Shown here in pieces: positions 8,614 through 15,984 of a DNA stretch of 61,306 bases. The translations under genes and the position numbers were made by a program. Within the stretch, counting starts at the first letter, position 1; each line of letters starts with the position of its first letter. Below the pieces are notes generated by a model. That model was not told the DNA's origin. It was given only the letters and a program-made list of their open reading frames with translations, and made no database searches. Source of the DNA: an uncultured Verrucomicrobiota bacterium (GTDB lineage: Bacteria > Verrucomicrobiota > Verrucomicrobiia > Limisphaerales > UBA9464); the NCBI GenBank assembly GCA_903907925.1, contig CAIVQB010000016.1:1-61306 (forward strand), given 5' to 3'.

Positions 8614-10527
8614 GTGTCCTGCCGTCACCTCAAACTGCTGTTCCTGTGGCAAGCCTTCGCTTACGCCGTGTTCATCCTAACCAGCACCGGGATCATCACC
8701 GAGTGGGGCCGCTGGTATTCGTCCAATCCTCACTACCGACAACAAGTCGAGGCCTTTCTGAGAGGCGAACTCGCGCTCAGCCACAATCCAGTCGAGGCAA
8801 TCCACGATCTCACCTGGTCCTGTGGCGGGGTGCATCAGGTTTGGGGTCTGGGTATTCCACTTTGGAGATTGCCGTTTGAGGCCATGGCCCGCCTCTCCGG
8901 GCAGAGCTCATTTCCGGATCATTTCACGTTCGGAATTGCGTTGGTGCTGTGGGCATTCGTGGTACTGCGCGCCTTCCTCGCCGTGCCGCGTGAATCGGAT
9001 GACTCTCGCTGCGGCCTCGGGTTCGGGCGCGGACTGTTGTCGGTCATCCTAATCTTGTTGTGCCCCATTTTTCTCTCAACTTGTTCGGCCCGCTTCCAAG
9101 TCTACGAGGAGGCGGTGGCCTACGAGTTCATCTTTGCCATCGGACTACTGGCCGGCCTTGTTCGATTGTGGCGACGCCCGACGTGGCGCGGTTGCCATTG
9201 GCTCTGCGCAATTGCGGGATGCGGGGCATTGATACGTCCAACATTGTTGTTTTACGGCGGAGCAACGTGGATCGGAGCTCTGTGGATCATGACTCCGGAA
9301 GGACGCAGCCCGAAATGGGGACGAATCGCCATCTCCACCGCAGTCTTCGCCGCGGGGGGAGGGACCTTATTCGTGACCAACCGGGCCCGTTTCGGGTCCG
9401 GTTTTGAGTTCGGACACCGACTCAACCTGCAGACGCTCTTCGGCTCGGTGTATGCCACACGATTCGATCACCCATTCGCCCACGAATCGCTCTTTCCGGC
9501 GATTGGCGAACTCCTCGGACTCTTGTTTCGGGTCGGGTTCTTGAATGGCGGCGACTACTACTGCGAACGCTTCTTCCCCGGCCAATCGGCAACCGTCCGC
9601 TGGAGGGAATTGTATTTCACCACCTACGATCTGAGTTGGTTGCCACTCATTCTGGGCGGATGGGGGCTGGGACTGTACGCGGTCGGACGCTCGCTTCGAG
9701 TGCAGTCTCCGTTCCGCAAATCAACACCCATCGCTCCGCAACTAACTTCCACGACCCTCAACCGGTCCACCGTTCCCCTGCCCGGCATCGCCGCCGTCTG
9801 GTCGATCATTCCGGCAACGCTCCTTTGCGCCTTCTACCTACGTAATTGCGTCGTCTCGTCACGCTACCTCGCCGATCTCGGACCGGCTTTTTGCGCCGCG
9901 ATTGTTGCGCTCGTTTGGGGATGGCCCGTCGGCAACGCTGAAACTCGATGCGGAGGATCGGCGGCGGTAGCGCTTTTGGGTTGGCTGGGATTCCAGATCT
10001 TGACAGTCCGAAACTGCTACGGTCCACCGTCCGCTTTGACCGTTTCGGAAGTTGAAGCGCACCGTGTAAGGCCCGTTCTTTCGCCGGAGGCCATCGGTGA
10101 TCGATACGCTCTCCAAAATCTCACAACTCAAGGCGCAGCGGCGGCGGCGCAAGCTCCATACAAACAGCCGTGGGCCAGTATTCGCTACAACGGCGTGGGC
10201 TGGAATCATTACGACGGCTTCACCAAACCAGTGGTTATCGCCTTCGTAAATGACGCCCGATTCCTCGAACTAGATGTCCAAATCCGCCCGGGTGCCACGT
10301 CAACCGAATCGGACTGGCAATCGATTCAAGCGAAGATCGGCCTCGACCTCCTGACGCTGGAGTCCAACACCAACTTGACCAACGGGACTCGACGACTCCG
10401 CTTTGCCGTCTCAAAACCGGAACGCTATCAGCCAGGACTCCAAGTCGCGTTTTTGGCCTTCGGCTCTCCGGACCACTTGTCTGCAAATCTCAGTCCATTT
10501 CGCTTGCTCCAAATCCGTTGGAAATAG
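8614..10527 (+). CDS. large multi-pass membrane protein, unknown function
   Basis: The 637-residue protein starts with a membrane segment (LLFLWQAFAYAVFILTSTG) and has roughly ten predicted hydrophobic segments, the last near residue 440. A polar, probably extracytoplasmic C-terminal domain of about 190 residues follows. The early loop SCGGVHQVWGLGIPLWRLPF is distinctive. The layout resembles GT-C type glycosyltransferases or polyprenyl-phosphate-dependent mannosyltransferases, but no acidic DxD-type loop was identified, so this is a guess. The start is a GTG at 8614. It is the first gene of a run of same-strand genes leading to the GT2 and pseudopilin genes. Confidence 0.7.
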   Translation: MSCRHLKLLFLWQAFAYAVFILTSTGIITEWGRWYSSNPHYRQQVEAFLRGELALSHNPVEAIHDLTWSCGGVHQVWGLGIPLWRLPFEAMARLSGQSSFPDHFTFGIALVLWAFVVLRAFLAVPRESDDSRCGLGFGRGLLSVILILLCPIFLSTCSARFQVYEEAVAYEFIFAIGLLAGLVRLWRRPTWRGCHWLCAIAGCGALIRPTLLFYGGATWIGALWIMTPEGRSPKWGRIAISTAVFAAGGGTLFVTNRARFGSGFEFGHRLNLQTLFGSVYATRFDHPFAHESLFPAIGELLGLLFRVGFLNGGDYYCERFFPGQSATVRWRELYFTTYDLSWLPLILGGWGLGLYAVGRSLRVQSPFRKSTPIAPQLTSTTLNRSTVPLPGIAAVWSIIPATLLCAFYLRNCVVSSRYLADLGPAFCAAIVALVWGWPVGNAETRCGGSAAVALLGWLGFQILTVRNCYGPPSALTVSEVEAHRVRPVLSPEAIGDRYALQNLTTQGAAAAAQAPYKQPWASIRYNGVGWNHYDGFTKPVVIAFVNDARFLELDVQIRPGATSTESDWQSIQAKIGLDLLTLESNTNLTNGTRRLRFAVSKPERYQPGLQVAFLAFGSPDHLSANLSPFRLLQIRWK

Positions 10528-10685
10528 CGCCTCAACCAATGAAACGAAGGCTCAAGTCATTGTGTGCCCAAGACGAACAGTTGACGGCTAGTCGTTGAAT
10601 CTGCGACGTGAGATTGATTGCGCATGGAGGTGCCAAGATTCCAGTTCCCGGAAATAGCCAGAATTCCGGATGCCATTCCGATCCG

Positions 10686-11297
10686 ATGAGACCGCCCATT
10701 CCCGACACTCTTGGCGCGTGGCGACGGTTAGCCTGTTGCGGTGGTTTTAATGAACAACGAATGGCCGCTCGACTCCAGGTCACCACACGCACGCTCCAAC
10801 GCCACTGGCGGCGAATGCTACCGTGTTTGCTGGAGTCATGGCTGCAGGAACAGCGGCTGATCCAGGCCGTGCACTGGCTTGAATTGACGGGATCAGTAAA
10901 AGAGGCGGCATTCGAAGCCGGCTATTCGGATTCCGCGCAGTTTTGCCGGAAGTTTAAGCAATGGCATGGGGTGACTCCGGGCCAGCATTTTCGCCGTTTC
11001 AGCAGTCAGTGTTCACTGTGGTCGAACAGGCAACTCCATTCCTCCCTTGTGCGACTCCAAACCGAGGCCCGTCAGTTCGCCGAAGACATCCGGAAAAACC
11101 TCACTCGACGTATCAAAGTGACCGACGTGCCATCAAAGGCCCCTCGGATCAATCGCTGGCAATTCTCATCCGATCAGCCGCATTCCCTCCCACGATCCGA
11201 TCAAACGATTGCTGGGTCTTGCCCGACAGCAGGTCGGGAACGAAGCCGTCTCGCGGATAGCCCCAATCCACCGCTTTCACACCAGATTTCGCCCTAG
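10686..11297 (+). CDS. stand-alone AraC-type HTH protein
   Basis: Residues around 20-105 form a two-helix-turn-helix AraC/XylS DNA-binding domain. The first HTH is AARLQVTTRTLQRHWRRML, the linker LLESWLQEQRLIQAVHWLEL, and the second HTH VKEAAFEAGYSDSAQFCRKF followed by KQWHGVTPGQHFRRF. There is no room for a ligand-binding domain. The C-terminal tail of about 90 residues is unlike known domains, and its last codons overlap the direct repeat at 11265-11391. The frame is open from 10608; the ATG at 10686 is preferred. It is likely a transcription regulator for the downstream exported-protein block. Confidence 0.7.
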   Translation: MRPPIPDTLGAWRRLACCGGFNEQRMAARLQVTTRTLQRHWRRMLPCLLESWLQEQRLIQAVHWLELTGSVKEAAFEAGYSDSAQFCRKFKQWHGVTPGQHFRRFSSQCSLWSNRQLHSSLVRLQTEARQFAEDIRKNLTRRIKVTDVPSKAPRINRWQFSSDQPHSLPRSDQTIAGSCPTAGRERSRLADSPNPPLSHQISP

Positions 11298-11391
11298 GTC
11301 AATTAGCCGGTCTTCCGTTCCCGCTTCGATCGAATTAGAAAGAACACTGTCGCCAATAGAGGTGGGCTCCTGCCCGGTGTGGAGAATCGTC
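11265..11391 (+). repeat. direct repeat, copy 1
   Basis: About 127 bp here aligns almost without gaps to 15859-15984. Shared landmarks in order are aatcc-ccgc, agatttcgc, ggtcaat, cggt-ttcc, tcgaatta, gtcgccaat-gaggt and gaatcgtc, with overall identity of roughly 70-75% by eye. Copy 1 overlaps the 3' end of the AraC-type gene and precedes the MauE/DoxX-like gene by 95 bp; copy 2 follows the pseudopilin. It could be a mobile-module boundary, a duplicated regulatory region or an intergenic repeat family. Confidence 0.65.
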
Positions 11392-11485
11392 TGTATCGCA
11401 ACTGAATCTAACAGACCCATTGCCAGGCCGCGGGCACCTACCGAGTACATCGCTCTATTCGCCGTCGGAAACCGCTTGATATATC

Positions 11486-11941
11486 ATGTCTGCAAAGATC
11501 AAAGAAGCCTATTTCCGGCTGTCAGCTGTTCTCCTCCTCGCAACCGGAGTCGTCAAGGTTGTCAGCGCGTTTTCGGACTCACGGCTGCTACAGCAACTCA
11601 ACCCAATATTTGGGATATCCAACGGCTGGGTATTTGCATTCATTGGGACAATAGAGATCTACATCGCCAGTGCCGTCGCCTTTTCACGCAACTCTCTTCT
11701 TCGGACGTCGCTGCTTGCTCTTCTTGTAACCGGATTTCTCGCTTACCGATCGGCCCTCGTCGTCTTGCACATTCCGGGTCCCTGCAAATGCCTCGGAGCA
11801 GCCACCGAATGGATCCCTGTACTGGCCGTCTACGAAACACCGCTGATGAACGCCACGCTCGGATTCTTGGCGCTCAGCTATGGATTCCTACTGATGGCCG
11901 CACTCAGACCAAGGAAACCGAAACCGTCGGTATCGACTTAA
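11486..11941 (+). CDS. MauE/DoxX-like four-TM membrane protein with CxC motif
   Basis: The 151-residue protein has four hydrophobic segments: LSAVLLLATGVVKVV, WVFAFIGTIEIYIASAVAF, LLALLVTGFLAYRSALVVL and a C-terminal LGFLALSYGFLLMAAL. A GPCKCLG motif lies between TM3 and TM4, with two cysteines spaced CxC. This layout matches redox-associated MauE/DoxX membrane proteins, whose founding member helps disulfide formation in methylamine dehydrogenase (family knowledge). The next gene encodes an exported protein with 16 mature cysteines, so a role in its oxidative folding is a reasonable inference. The genes are separated by only 34 bp. Confidence 0.6.
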   Translation: MSAKIKEAYFRLSAVLLLATGVVKVVSAFSDSRLLQQLNPIFGISNGWVFAFIGTIEIYIASAVAFSRNSLLRTSLLALLVTGFLAYRSALVVLHIPGPCKCLGAATEWIPVLAVYETPLMNATLGFLALSYGFLLMAALRPRKPKPSVST

Positions 11942-11975
11942 TATCACCATCCACAGCTCACAACAAACACACAAT

Positions 11976-12494
11976 ATGAAGAACCTACTCACCTCGCTCT
12001 GCATTCTGATAACGCTCCTCTGCATCGGGCCGGGAGCTCCCAGCACTGTCCTGGCAAGTGGCGCTTGCTACGGCATCACATGGATACCGGCCAAACAGGC
12101 CGCCTGCCAATGCAATGGGTTCACTCTCGGTGCCTGCAATTCCACGTCAACATCAGTCTCGCAGGGACACTACGTCTGCACCACTTCTGGCAATTTCGAC
12201 CACTGTATCAACGTCGGGCAAGACAGAGGAGGCCTTTTCAAATGCGATCAAAGCTACAACTGGAGAGTAATTCTCACCTGCTCTTTGGGTGCGGTGGGTT
12301 GTGCCGCTGCCTGCCTCGCCGCAGAAACTGGCATTGGTCTCGCGGCCTGCCTCGCATGCGTTGCGGCGATCAGTCCCGCCTGCCAAGGCTGCGCGATTCT
12401 CTCCTGCGATCTAAATCCGATCGCAATTGGTCAAAACGTTCAGCCCGTCGCGATTGACTACGGCGGGAGCTGCACCTTGTTGACCGCTCTCTGA
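11976..12494 (+). CDS. exported cysteine-rich protein, possible halocin C8-like peptide precursor
   Basis: The 172-residue protein has a signal peptide (MKNLLTSLCILITLLCIGPG to about residue 30). The mature part carries 16 cysteines. A polar Cys-containing middle segment is followed by a hydrophobic Cys/Ala/Gly-rich stretch at about residues 107-147 (TCSLGAVGCAAACLAA, then ACLACVAAISPACQGC and AILSCD). The stretch resembles the C-terminal cores of halocin C8-type peptides and other hydrophobic disulfide-rich antimicrobials; the resemblance is by eye only. A structural envelope protein is an equally open alternative. The upstream MauE-like gene suggests disulfide bonding. Confidence 0.6.
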   Translation: MKNLLTSLCILITLLCIGPGAPSTVLASGACYGITWIPAKQAACQCNGFTLGACNSTSTSVSQGHYVCTTSGNFDHCINVGQDRGGLFKCDQSYNWRVILTCSLGAVGCAAACLAAETGIGLAACLACVAAISPACQGCAILSCDLNPIAIGQNVQPVAIDYGGSCTLLTAL

Positions 12495-12611
12495 CGCCGT
12501 CAGCACGAGATCTCTCCCCACCGCAGAACTTGAACCCGCTTACCAGCAAACCCCCGAGCGATTTCCACCGAAATGATTCGTCGCATCCGACGGGACCAAC
12601 CTTCTCATCCC

Positions 12612-13912
12612 ATGACACAATCGTCGTCCAAATATTCGATGATCGAATTGCGGAGCTCAAGAATCATCCTCATCCTGTTGGGATTCATCTTGGTTCCTTT
12701 CTTCGCAGCAAAAGCTGACAATACTACGCCACAAGATATTGCATTGCTCTACGGCTTCCTGACGAAGCCCCTTCCGGACGAGTTTACGCTTACGGCAGTG
12801 GTTTGCTTGGAAGAATTGCCTTGGACCGAGGATCAAGTCCAAAAAGAGGTGAAAAGCCAGGAGCAGGCTTTCCGGGAAACGGATAGACTCGTCAGTCCGG
12901 AAACACAAAAGGAACTCCACCTTTTGCGGACGGCGGGCATTCGTCGCGCACACACTGGGAAGCGGTGGATGCTGTGGCGGGAATACCGTTCCAGGGGGGC
13001 CTACCGTTTGGATTCGACGGAATTGTGGGACAAGGCCCCAACGGCGGCGATCACCAACGATGTGGAACAGATCCAATTCGAGGAACGCCGGGTTAATACG
13101 GAGAAGCACTCGAAGGAATTCCTTGCCGGCATCAACGTGTTCACGATCTCAGACGTCCATCATACTGCGATGGCAAGCATGAACGCCGGATCCAGATGGG
13201 CCGAGACAGAAATGTGGCAATCCATTTCGATTGAACCACAATTCGCACTACCCGTTGTCGCCGCCCTTATGGAACGGCCCGATCCACGGGTCGCCGATCG
13301 ATTGAAAGGAATCAACGGATCTTTTGCCGGGCTTGCTCCGGACCTCGACAAAGTGAACATCATGGCATCCGGAAAGGATCCGAACTGGACGGTAAACAAA
13401 TCGACCTCCGCTTTGAGTGGCTCCAACGGGGTGAGCTTCACTCTTCGGGAACAAAATGCGCACCAGGAGCCTCCATCACCTATGCATTTGATTCCGACGC
13501 GTTGACCAACCTGAGGCTTTACACGGCAGAGTCGGCCAAGGGATCCCGAATTCGGGTGGAACGGACAGGATTCAAAGCTCCCGGGGTTCCCTCCCAGTGG
13601 ATTACCGACAAATGGAACGACAAAGGGGAGCACTCTCGCAGTACGTTCGAAATCCTCGAATACACCCCCTCGATCCCGGGCACCCGCGAAGCAATCTTCG
13701 GCTTCAACTATCCGACAAACTACGTCGTCACTAAGAGCTTTCCCGACGGGAGAAACGAGTTCGTCCAAAATCCAATGGGAGTGAAGATGTACCAGCCTGC
13801 CGCCGGCACTGACGTATCCAGGAGGCTGGGTTGGCCCTTCCTCCTGTTTTGCGTCCTGTCGGCGCCTCCGGTCGCGATAGCCTGTTTCAAGCTGCGAACC
13901 CGGAGAGGTTAG
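12612..13912 (+). pseudogene. exported C-terminally anchored hypothetical protein, frameshifted
   Basis: Two overlapping frames together read as one protein of about 433 residues. The first half starts at 12612 (or 12639) with a signal peptide (IILILLGFILVPFFAAKADN) and is convincing up to about 13350. From about 13375 the sense-bearing frame is one nucleotide back: it reads GSELDGKQIDLRFEWLQRGE, then ASITYAFDSDALTNLRLYT, and runs to 13912. It ends with a hydrophobic anchor (WPFLLFCVLSAPPVAIACF) and basic residues. The apparent -1 shift lies at about 13350-13380. It may be a sequencing indel, an inactivating mutation or, less likely, programmed frameshifting. No catalytic motif is recognised. 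Confidence 0.6.
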
Positions 13913-13969
13913 CCTCCACATCGCAGACATTTTCGGCCCAAAGCCCGGAACGGGACCAGGCTAGAGACT

Positions 13970-14854
13970 ATGAACCTCCCTTCAAATCCGAGTGTCTTGG
14001 ATTCCAAGGTGGAGGGTCTCCATTCGATGGGATCACTCGCCGTTCTCATTCCCGTGTTCAATGAGGCACCAACAATCCGGGAGATCATCGGTCGGGTTTT
14101 GGCAAAGAGCTTTGTCTCAGAGGTGGTCGTCGTCGACGACGGATCAACTGACGGAGTCTACGACCTTCTAACCACCCAAGGAACTCGGAATGAACGTGTT
14201 AAGATTATAAAGCACATCGGGAATCGTGGGAAGGGCGCGGCGATCCGAACGGCTCTTTCCCATTCGGATTCGGCGTTGGTCCTGATTCAGGATGCGGATT
14301 TGGAATACGATCCTGTCGACTACAAAAAGCTTGTCGAATGCATGCAACATTCCACAACGGCTATCGTTTACGGCTCCCGATTCATGAGGGAATCCCATGT
14401 CACCGCCTCTTCAAGCTGGCAGAATTCGGGCAATCGACTGCTGACACGGTTCGGGAACTGGGTGACGGGCCAAACTCTCACTGACGAGGCCACCTGCTAT
14501 AAGCTGTTTCGGCGGGAGATTCTGGAACAAATGAACCTGCAGGAGGACGGCTTTGGATTTTGTCCCGAGGTGACAGCAAAGGCTGGTCGCTTGGGCATCA
14601 GAATACTGGAGGTTCCGATCAGCTATCGCCCTCGCAATAGGCGCGAGGGAAAGAAGATCCGCATCTGGCACGGGTTCGAGGCTTTGTGGTGCCTGCTGAA
14701 GTACACCTGGTTTGACCGTAGTTTGGTCGCGGAAACGCCCCACCGAGTGAATGCAGTTAGACGCCGATACTGTGAGTTACCCAGACCGATGTATCCCGGC
14801 CCGAGCGAGGCGAATACCCGGCTTCGGAGCGCGGGCGAAGGAGATTCCAAATGA
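13970..14854 (+). CDS. family 2 glycosyltransferase (dolichyl-phosphate sugar transferase-like)
   Basis: The 294-residue protein is a GT-A fold GT2 enzyme. [18 protein letters not shown] and [10 protein letters not shown] form the nucleotide-binding start, [13 protein letters not shown] follows, and QDADLEYDP supplies the DxD-type metal site. SRFMRES and the late [12 protein letters not shown] motif resemble DPM1/GtrB-type enzymes that load sugars onto polyprenyl phosphate. It lacks long membrane segments, so it is probably membrane-associated. An internal ATG at residue 20 ([10 protein letters not shown]) could be the true start. It overlaps the pseudopilin gene by 4 nt (ATGA), indicating translational coupling and suggesting a role in glycosylating exported proteins of this block. 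Confidence 0.88.
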
Positions 14855-15684
14855 ATCCCATTGATCGAAGCCGGTTGGGGCGATTTGTTTCAGGATTCAC
14901 ACTCATCGAGTTGGTCGTGGTGATGGGAATCATCGCCATTCTCGCCGGGTTGTTGCTTCCCGCACTCGCTACGGCTCAGGGAACCGGAAGACGGATCGCC
15001 TGCATCAGCAACCATCGTCAGCTTGCGCTCGCGTGGCAGCAGTACGCCTCCGATAACAGTCAGGCATTGGTTTGGACGGTCGATGATGGAGACAATGTCC
15101 GTTTCACAAATTGGGTCGCCGGTCACCTCGGACGGGCCGATGAAGCAACGAATACCACCCTGCTGGCTGACCGTCGGCGTTCGTTGTTCGCGGCGTACAT
15201 CCCGACACCGGGAATCTACCGATGTCCGGCCGATCCCAGCCGATTCTGTCGAAGCGTGTCGATGAACAATCGCCTCAATCCCGTGCGCGTCGTGGGTTCC
15301 GTTCTCGCGGTGGGCGGCTACGGCACCAACTTTTCCATCTACCGGAAGCTTCCCGAAATCAACAATGCCGCAGGAATCTTTGTCATCCTGGACGAACGGT
15401 ACGACAGCATCAACGAAGCCAATTTCGCGTCGGATCTCAGCAATACCGGCACGCTAAGTGGGGATGGTGTTCCGTCGCCGTTTTGGTGGTTGGACACCCC
15501 TGCCGGCTACCATCGAAAGGCGATCAATCTAAGCTTTGCCGATGGCCACGTCGAATCTCACACATGGCAACGGGCGACGACACTGGGTCCGATCGGGAAG
15601 ACTGGTTTTCGTCACACCACTGCCGATGATCCGGACTGCGCTTGGTTGCAGCGGCGCGCTTCCGAACGGGTGAGGGTTCATTAG
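14851..15684 (+). CDS. prepilin-type pseudopilin with H-X9-DG motif
   Basis: The 277-residue protein has a type IV prepilin leader cut between G15 and F16, with the conserved Glu at position +5 (E20) in [19 protein letters not shown]. The segment [20 protein letters not shown] follows the N-terminal helix. The C-terminal part contains H-X9-DG ([13 protein letters not shown]). This architecture is characteristic of Planctomycetota/Verrucomicrobiota pseudopilin-like proteins that occur in many copies per genome. It should be processed by a prepilin peptidase that is not encoded here. Its start codon overlaps the GT2 stop. Confidence 0.9.
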
Positions 15685-15858
15685 GGTGTCGAATTTCGAA
15701 TCAGCGATTCAACTTCGGCAGCGACCCGATTGCCCCTTACTCGGTCCGGCCCGTCGCCGAAAACCGAGCCAGGACACCCACTCTCCCTGGCTTTTAGGAA
15801 CGGTAAATCCCGGCAGTCGGGCCATCCGTCGGGTCAAAGACCGGACCTCACAACGACA

Positions 15859-15984
15859 AATCCTCCGCATCCACAGCAGATTTCGCTCTGGGTCAATCGA
15901 ACGGTGTTCCACCCGGGTGTCGCTCGAATTATAACAAACGAGTCGCCAATGGAGGTCGATCGGGGCCCGGAGTCGCGAATCGTC
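15859..15984 (+). repeat. direct repeat, copy 2, in a 638-bp gene-free gap
   Basis: This is the partner of 11265-11391, in the same orientation. Conserved blocks include agatttcgctctgggtcaat, tcgaatta and gtcgccaatggaggt. Weaker similarity may continue to about 16050 (ccgggcaccca here, gcgggcaccta in copy 1). The rest of 15685-16322 contains no convincing gene. It has a run of eight or more G at about 16081 and a tandem cccactca-type tract at 16235-16297. Confidence 0.65.

Follow-up and report, generated by a model that had tools for sequence, protein, structure and literature searches.

A MauE-associated gene set in Verrucomicrobiota, probably a modular cassette for the maturation and export of disulfide-rich polypeptides

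Introduction

Methylamine dehydrogenase has a disulfide-rich small subunit, MauA, for which MauE and MauD are together required, and a C-x-C motif is typical of the redox-active members of the MauE family. An operon of the form mauBEDA-moxG is mentioned for Methylacidiphilum infernorum (PMC2474590), and glycocin clusters, for example that of sublancin, are described as bringing together a cysteine-rich peptide, thiol-disulfide oxidoreductases and a glycosyltransferase (PMC12457901).

Here we describe a gene set at positions 10,686 to 15,984 of a 61,306-nucleotide stretch of DNA (contig CAIVQB010000016.1, referred to throughout as the window) from an uncultured bacterium of the Verrucomicrobiota, in which a MauE-like gene is followed on the same strand by genes for a secreted cysteine-rich protein (termed the cargo), an exported, C-terminally anchored protein (ANC), a glycosyltransferase and a pseudopilin. 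We consider it likely that this set serves, as a modular cassette, to mature and export secreted polypeptides rich in disulfides. The gene set recurs with a strand bias, some of its members are fused, and its cargo proteins are diverse and mostly have an even number of cysteines. The preliminary description of the locus had staked its proposal on a conserved gene neighbourhood, and the neighbourhood is conserved: a small secreted cysteine-rich open reading frame (ORF) lies within 2.5 kb of MauE on the same strand in 58 of 83 cases, and on the opposite strand in none, with 31 of 35 genomes represented.

Judged by its genes, the cassette would work like a mau or a glycocin maturation cluster and yet would fail the defining features of both. 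As in the mau operon, a MauE-family membrane protein stands beside a small exported cysteine-rich protein; in contrast to that operon, Pfam and NCBIfam find no MauB or MauA dehydrogenase subunit and no MauD among the eight window proteins of 8614-15684, the cargo is mostly unrelated between modules, genes for ANC, glycosyltransferases and pseudopilins are added, and MauE is in some cases fused to ANC. Like the glycocin clusters, the module brings a cysteine-rich polypeptide together with a thiol-disulfide redox protein and glycosyltransferases, and its planctomycete form has a C39-like counterpart of their C39 peptidase domain. The differences from the clusters described there are that the precursors, of 68-182 amino acids including the signal sequence, carry a Sec-type signal sequence and not a leader cut by a peptidase-containing ABC transporter (none is found by Pfam or NCBIfam among the same eight window proteins), that membrane GT-C-like and GtrA genes are present, and that MauE replaces the thioredoxin-like enzymes. 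Among open-licence papers in PMC, screened by title and the start of the abstract and, for the larger result lists, among the top matches, we found no description of such a module.

Results and discussion

The window locus

The genes of the locus and the gene upstream of it are as follows.

8614-10527, + strand: large membrane protein without Pfam or NCBIfam match, upstream of the span of the preliminary description
10686-11297, + strand: stand-alone AraC-type helix-turn-helix (HTH) protein (HTH_18, E 4.9e-17)
11486-11941, + strand: MauE-like membrane redox protein with PCKCLG (C-x-C-L-G) (Pfam MauE, E 7.7e-6, 26.7 bits)
11976-12494, + strand: secreted cysteine-rich cargo protein of 172 amino acids with 18 cysteines, without Pfam or NCBIfam match
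12573-13912, + strand: exported, C-terminally anchored protein (ANC), frameshifted (first frame 12573-13505, second frame ending at 13912)
13970-14854, + strand: family 2 glycosyltransferase (GT2), polyprenyl-phosphate-sugar-synthase-like (Glycos_transf_2, E 1.4e-29)
14851-15684, + strand: H-X9-DG pseudopilin (N_methyl 1.6e-5, DUF1559 1.1e-5)

The same-strand run of genes behind the AraC-type gene is present where the preliminary description placed it, with gaps of 188, 34, 78 and 57 bases and then a 4-base overlap from the AraC-type gene to the pseudopilin gene. The 16 cysteines it had given for the secreted protein correspond to those left of the 18 after a guessed signal-peptide cut. The MauE-like and cysteine-rich genes were missed by a codon-based gene caller. 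The MauE-like protein falls just under the curated cut-off of 27 bits for Pfam MauE (PF07291), which its relative at locus L108 passes with 29.0 bits (L numbers denote the loci examined). The GT2 protein scores 116.9 bits against NCBIfam AglJ and 65.9 bits against PpgS, both under cut-off. In the pseudopilin the N-terminal methylation motif is present (N_methyl 24.7 bits, cut-off 21.2) and the H-X9-DG stretch is visible in the sequence, yet TIGR04294 reaches 13.2 bits against a cut-off of 19. The anti-phage defence profiles of PADLOC matched no family among five proteins scanned (four of the window and one relative).

The anchored protein had been described as one exported protein; it is recognised by profile match, but is split over two frames. 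Positions 1-262 of the family profile (A4) match in the first frame and positions 255-379 in the second, and since the profile thus runs from one frame into the other, the window copy is frameshifted, in reality or by assembly error, in the region 13340-13505. The claim that codon use is more AT-rich than in the flanks holds for base composition, with G+C of 0.54-0.58 for the 1-kb bins between 10 and 16 kb and at least 0.60 in most other bins; for codons it is less clear, the G+C at third codon positions (GC3) being 0.59-0.68 across the module genes against a single flanking figure of 0.67 for the neighbouring gene at 8614-10527.

Genes recurring beside MauE

MauE relatives were found in 15 of 58 related genomes, and L17, K24, E57, Y87, C100, C102 and G104 are invariant across 11 MauE sequences. 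Of 385 genomes of the class, 38 had a match to a profile of these 11 proteins at E 0.001, with all matches below 1e-8 lying within the window's order; in 288 genomes drawn from the phylum, the matches at E 1e-6 were the window itself and one other. Searching solved structures with MauE returned a single row at chance level. The collected set consists of 83 MauE genes from 35 genomes, defined as profile matches above 30 bits in the stretches around matches; it omits places with weaker or fragmentary matches, and two weaker matches within the stretches, in L103 and L116, were dropped. C-x-C-x-G is carried by 73 of the 83, and some genomes hold several modules, in places arrayed. At two places (L095:2717-3388 and L110:3091-3789) MauE-like proteins without C-x-C-x-G have C-terminal CPxC-type motifs that resemble zinc ribbons.

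The preliminary description had called for profile searches for the co-occurrence of MauE-like and cysteine-rich genes. These find it to be recurrent, on the same strand and above the level of control loci, and find glycosylation genes, pseudopilins and fusions besides. The control comprises 506 kb, on both strands, from 15 of the 35 genomes, hand-placed at round coordinates, and the rules for signal peptides, anchors and gene calling are simple and home-made. In loci that were uninspected when the rule was fixed, a cysteine-rich ORF stands beside 45 of 62 MauE genes; after removal of two redundant rows the overall figure is 56 of 81. Six of 65 ORFs of the cysteine class were removed as MauE overlaps or spurious, and the control holds four such ORFs, none of them convincing. 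An ANC gene lies near MauE on the same strand in 28 of 83 cases and on the opposite strand in none; ANC is adjacent or fused to MauE in 38 of 83, and ANC and cargo both stand beside it in 30 of 83.

Any of eight glycosylation-type families occurs within 5 kb of MauE 53 times on the same strand and three times on the opposite strand, with none in the control, a total that leans upward because same-strand counts had been used to rank the families from which these were chosen. Three of the eight are named by Pfam (GtrA, GT2, GT87), one is a Wzy_C-transglutaminase family and four are GT-C families by our own label. Individually, GtrA gives 23 same-strand against two opposite-strand occurrences, GT-C type a 22 against none, and GT2, within 5 kb, 14 of 83 against one. 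The membrane protein at L106:8933-11383 combines Wzy_C with a transglutaminase core, and its family occurs, exclusively on the same strand, near 9-10 of the 83 MauE genes. Pseudopilins lie within 4 kb on the same strand of 36 of 83 MauE genes and on the opposite strand of five; a stricter rule, limited to 2.5 kb, gives 17 against one. Ten ORFs fuse MauE to a C-terminally anchored domain (those of L048 and L113 being one gene in two genomes), two fuse it to a GT-C-like protein, and one ORF, in L087, consists of a MauE-like part lacking C-x-C-x-G, a stretch like a zinc ribbon and a pseudopilin.

A chance neighbourhood within a low-G+C accessory region would suit the G+C below that of the flanks and the finding, by single-sequence search, of no relative of the window's cysteine-rich protein in 57 related genomes. 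This explanation is extremely improbable: the counts above already contradict it, with their strand-specific enrichment over controls and the fusions, as does the occurrence of a comparable set in another order, and the window gene set is not a chance cluster.

The pseudopilin and glycosylation counts and the MauE-pseudopilin ORF would also fit a structural or adhesive surface protein, in which case the cargo would be cross-linked and glycosylated and form part of a pseudopilus, a matrix or the envelope. We regard this as unlikely, as so diverse a cargo would be surprising in a structural role and pseudopilins occur elsewhere without the module, with MauE in none of 19 pseudopilin-seeded loci. 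The pseudopilin was accordingly rejected as a seed for finding modules.

The AraC-type gene had been counted as a member of the module; this is not supported, such genes lying near MauE three times on the same strand and twice on the opposite strand, with one match in the control. In contrast, the upstream gene at 8614-10527, whose product we take to be GT-C-like, probably belongs to the module on the evidence of its neighbourhood. Its family lies within 5 kb on the same strand of four of the 83 MauE genes, the window included, with none on the opposite strand or in the control. One relative (E 6.3e-114) stands upstream of MauE, GT2 and a pseudopilin in L039, a locus from another family of the order; L039 holds a relative of the window pseudopilin (E 3e-114).

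Diversity of the cargo

Among 58 distinct cargo proteins, 42 have an even number of cysteines in the mature part (p 0.0009). Against Pfam the 58 cysteine-rich proteins gave one match, belonging to an oxidoreductase fragment mistakenly included, and against NCBIfam one weak match; in an all-against-all comparison most are singletons at E 0.01. By our home-made rule the signal sequence of the window cargo is of Sec type, and the protein has no Pfam or NCBIfam match at E 1 and no PADLOC match. It does have true relatives, with fourteen cysteines invariant in three sequences from two families and nine in seven sequences. Structure prediction for the cargo fold gave a mean predicted local distance difference test (pLDDT) value of 42 and was left unused, and three weak rows among solved structures (best E 0.0038) were taken as matches of cysteine pattern.

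A profile of the window cargo matched in nine of 320 genomes of the order at E 0.01. It gave eight new places; two of them, the weakest and interrupted by in-frame stops, were not recovered on re-examination and were excluded, leaving six. All five untruncated new loci have an ANC-type gene behind the cargo. The rule flags it in L175, L176 and L179; in L177 it is broken, and in L178 it has no in-frame anchor. MauE is present in two of the six. L176 has in consecutive order a pseudopilin, the cargo, the anchored protein, MauE, a membrane protein and GT2.

Four distinct pairs of MauE proteins are more than 60% identical, compared by nearest cargo and omitting pairs with identical cargo such as L048/L113. 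Their cargo is unrelated in L039/L088 and L085/L106 and related in L108/L109 and L124/L130. Above 35% identity, cargo is related in four of 62 pairs. Overall, mean MauE similarity is 0.34 for pairs with related cargo and 0.24 otherwise. The cargo therefore seems to change, or to be swapped, faster than the machine, yet with some inheritance.

These properties bear on the possibility that the cassette encodes a bacteriocin or toxin with its immunity, in which the cysteine-rich protein would be a secreted antibacterial oxidised by MauE and ANC a membrane-anchored immunity protein. We hold this possible, if rather on the unlikely side. The cargo is small, secreted and very diverse, closely related MauE proteins can stand beside unrelated cargo (two of the four pairs above), an ANC-type gene follows the cargo in all untruncated new loci, and modules can be several to a genome and arrayed. 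The hydrophobic, cysteine-rich C-terminus of the window's cargo subfamily is also reminiscent of halocin C8. On the other side, no dedicated ABC exporter turned up among the annotated neighbours, where no systematic search for one was made.

The anchored protein

ANC proteins have no Pfam match. A single ANC family for the whole order was not demonstrated (hhalign probabilities of 1, 48 and 8 per cent between groups). A structural model of ANC, weak at a mean pLDDT of 53, ranks LolB, LolA3, two LolA-superfamily entries and V. cholerae LolB highest, the best VIA Z values (8.3, 8.3, 8.0 and 7.5) all belonging to the LolA/LolB/RseB superfamily, whereas the best Foldseek rows are of other folds at E 0.007 or worse. 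From that superfamily ANC differs in its C-terminal transmembrane anchor, its ectodomain of about 300 residues and its lack of a Pfam match.

Six ANC-profile matches fall in ORFs of 625-660 amino acids (L189:1447-3360, L190:688-2571 and L191-L194) with the ANC-type domain at the C-terminus. Four of these that were read start like a sigma factor of the extracytoplasmic function (ECF) type, two of them confirmed by Pfam. With an ECF-like start joined to a C-terminal ANC-type domain, they may be sigma factors whose sensor domain is exported.

RseB regulates a sigma factor, and these ORFs, together with the weak LolA/RseB-like fold of the ANC model, would suit peptide signalling, in which the cargo would be a secreted disulfide-rich signal, bound by ANC-type domains and read out by those joined to ECF sigma factors. 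This appears quite unlikely: no convincing cargo gene lies within about 1.5 kb on each side at L189-L194, and the nine genomes matching the window cargo profile include none of the six. ANC-type domains in ECF sigma factor ORFs without convincing cargo alongside also speak against a role of ANC in immunity.

A related gene set in Planctomycetota

One of the 19 pseudopilin-seeded loci, in Singulisphaera sp. GP187 (Planctomycetota, Isosphaerales, an order different from that of the window), had a cysteine-rich and an anchored gene nearby, and was therefore used for a test in a second order. GP187 has seven MauE-profile matches, one of which carries CGCFG. Upstream of this gene (L229) and on the same strand lie a cysteine-rich ORF at about 3.3 kb and an anchored protein at about 1.7 kb, with a rhodanese protein between cargo/ANC and MauE and a GT2 behind MauE. 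The six matches without CGCFG have no convincing cargo or ANC within 4 kb; among them, one has a pseudopilin and an opposite-strand ORF of the cysteine class, and another a doubtful same-strand ORF of that class about 4 kb off.

Close relatives of the CGCFG protein occur in four of 45 genomes of its order, GP187 included, at five places. Cargo, anchored protein, rhodanese protein, MauE and pseudopilin are consecutive in L243. L242 has the anchored protein, the rhodanese protein, MauE and a cysteine-rich protein, the last recognised by eye and not by rule, and L245 has an unflagged gene in the place of the anchored protein, then the rhodanese protein, MauE and a pseudopilin, with no cargo. The 6-kb contig of L244 has none of the partner genes. 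The planctomycete MauE proteins score 49.4-78.6 bits against PF07291. The rhodanese proteins beside MauE, each with a C39-like N-terminal part, are as follows.

L229:4724-6061: rhodanese protein with YCG motif; C39-like part weak
L242:4807-6093: rhodanese protein with YCG motif; C39-like part weak
L243:5103-6236: rhodanese protein with YCG motif; C39-like part unscored
L245:6706-7791: rhodanese protein with YCG motif; C39-like part over the Pfam cut-off

C39 domains are of the type that cuts bacteriocin leaders, so that the domain passing its cut-off in one of four partners adds to the case for an antibacterial product. The GG that precedes the cysteine-rich part of the L242 and L243 cargo would suit such a peptidase, and the C39-like/rhodanese pair might both cut and oxidise a peptide. 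In the window's order, a profile of the C39-rhodanese pair, run at E 0.01 against the window, L030-L049 and L084-L143, gave no match.

Proposed mechanism and significance

From these neighbourhoods we infer a pathway for the maturation and export of disulfide-rich cargo. In the window, the cargo (11976-12494) would enter the periplasm through Sec, where the MauE-like membrane protein would pass oxidising equivalents to it via the C-x-C pair, a step proposed from the role of MauE in methylamine dehydrogenase maturation and from the conserved C-x-C. ANC, anchored in the inner membrane and possibly of LolA/LolB/RseB-like fold, may bind, hold or present the cargo. The GT2 would make a sugar carried on polyprenyl phosphate, which neighbours of GtrA and GT-C type could flip and transfer to the cargo or a partner, as an optional addition. 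The pseudopilin, an optional part of the module, may connect the product with an export apparatus resembling type II, for release or display, and in the order of Singulisphaera the added rhodanese protein with its C39-like domain could trim the cargo and help to oxidise it. The cargo slot would be filled by many unrelated cysteine-rich proteins.

Several observations weigh against this cassette. C-x-C-x-G is lacking in 10 of the 83 MauE genes, 25 of the 83 have no cargo by rule (some near contig ends, several not), and many have no nearby pseudopilin or sugar gene. Four of the six new cargo loci have no MauE within the stretch examined, and no MauD-like thioredoxin turned up among the annotated neighbours, where no search was aimed at one. 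The window's own ANC gene is frameshifted, the ANC proteins of the order form at least three sequence groups that the hhalign comparisons leave unconnected, and, with the ANC model as weak as it is, Z values near 8 may reflect a common arrangement.

Going further, it is conceivable, and we put it forward tentatively as an unlikely case, that the modules constitute an undescribed secretion system, probably spread over two phyla, whose cargo can be exchanged. A single conserved machine for redox chemistry, anchoring and glycosylation would then mature diverse disulfide-rich proteins for competition or signalling, and ANC-type domains would be cognate receptors or immunity proteins, some of them wired to ECF sigma factors.

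The gene set described here gives context to a branch of MauE without adjoining methylamine genes, to anchored and cysteine-rich families outside Pfam, and to H-X9-DG pseudopilins. It also raises a testable general question, namely whether one kind of membrane oxidant serves many unrelated cargo folds. If the cargo is an antibacterial or a signal, a large and unexplored set of disulfide-rich secreted proteins would become findable through the adjoining MauE gene.

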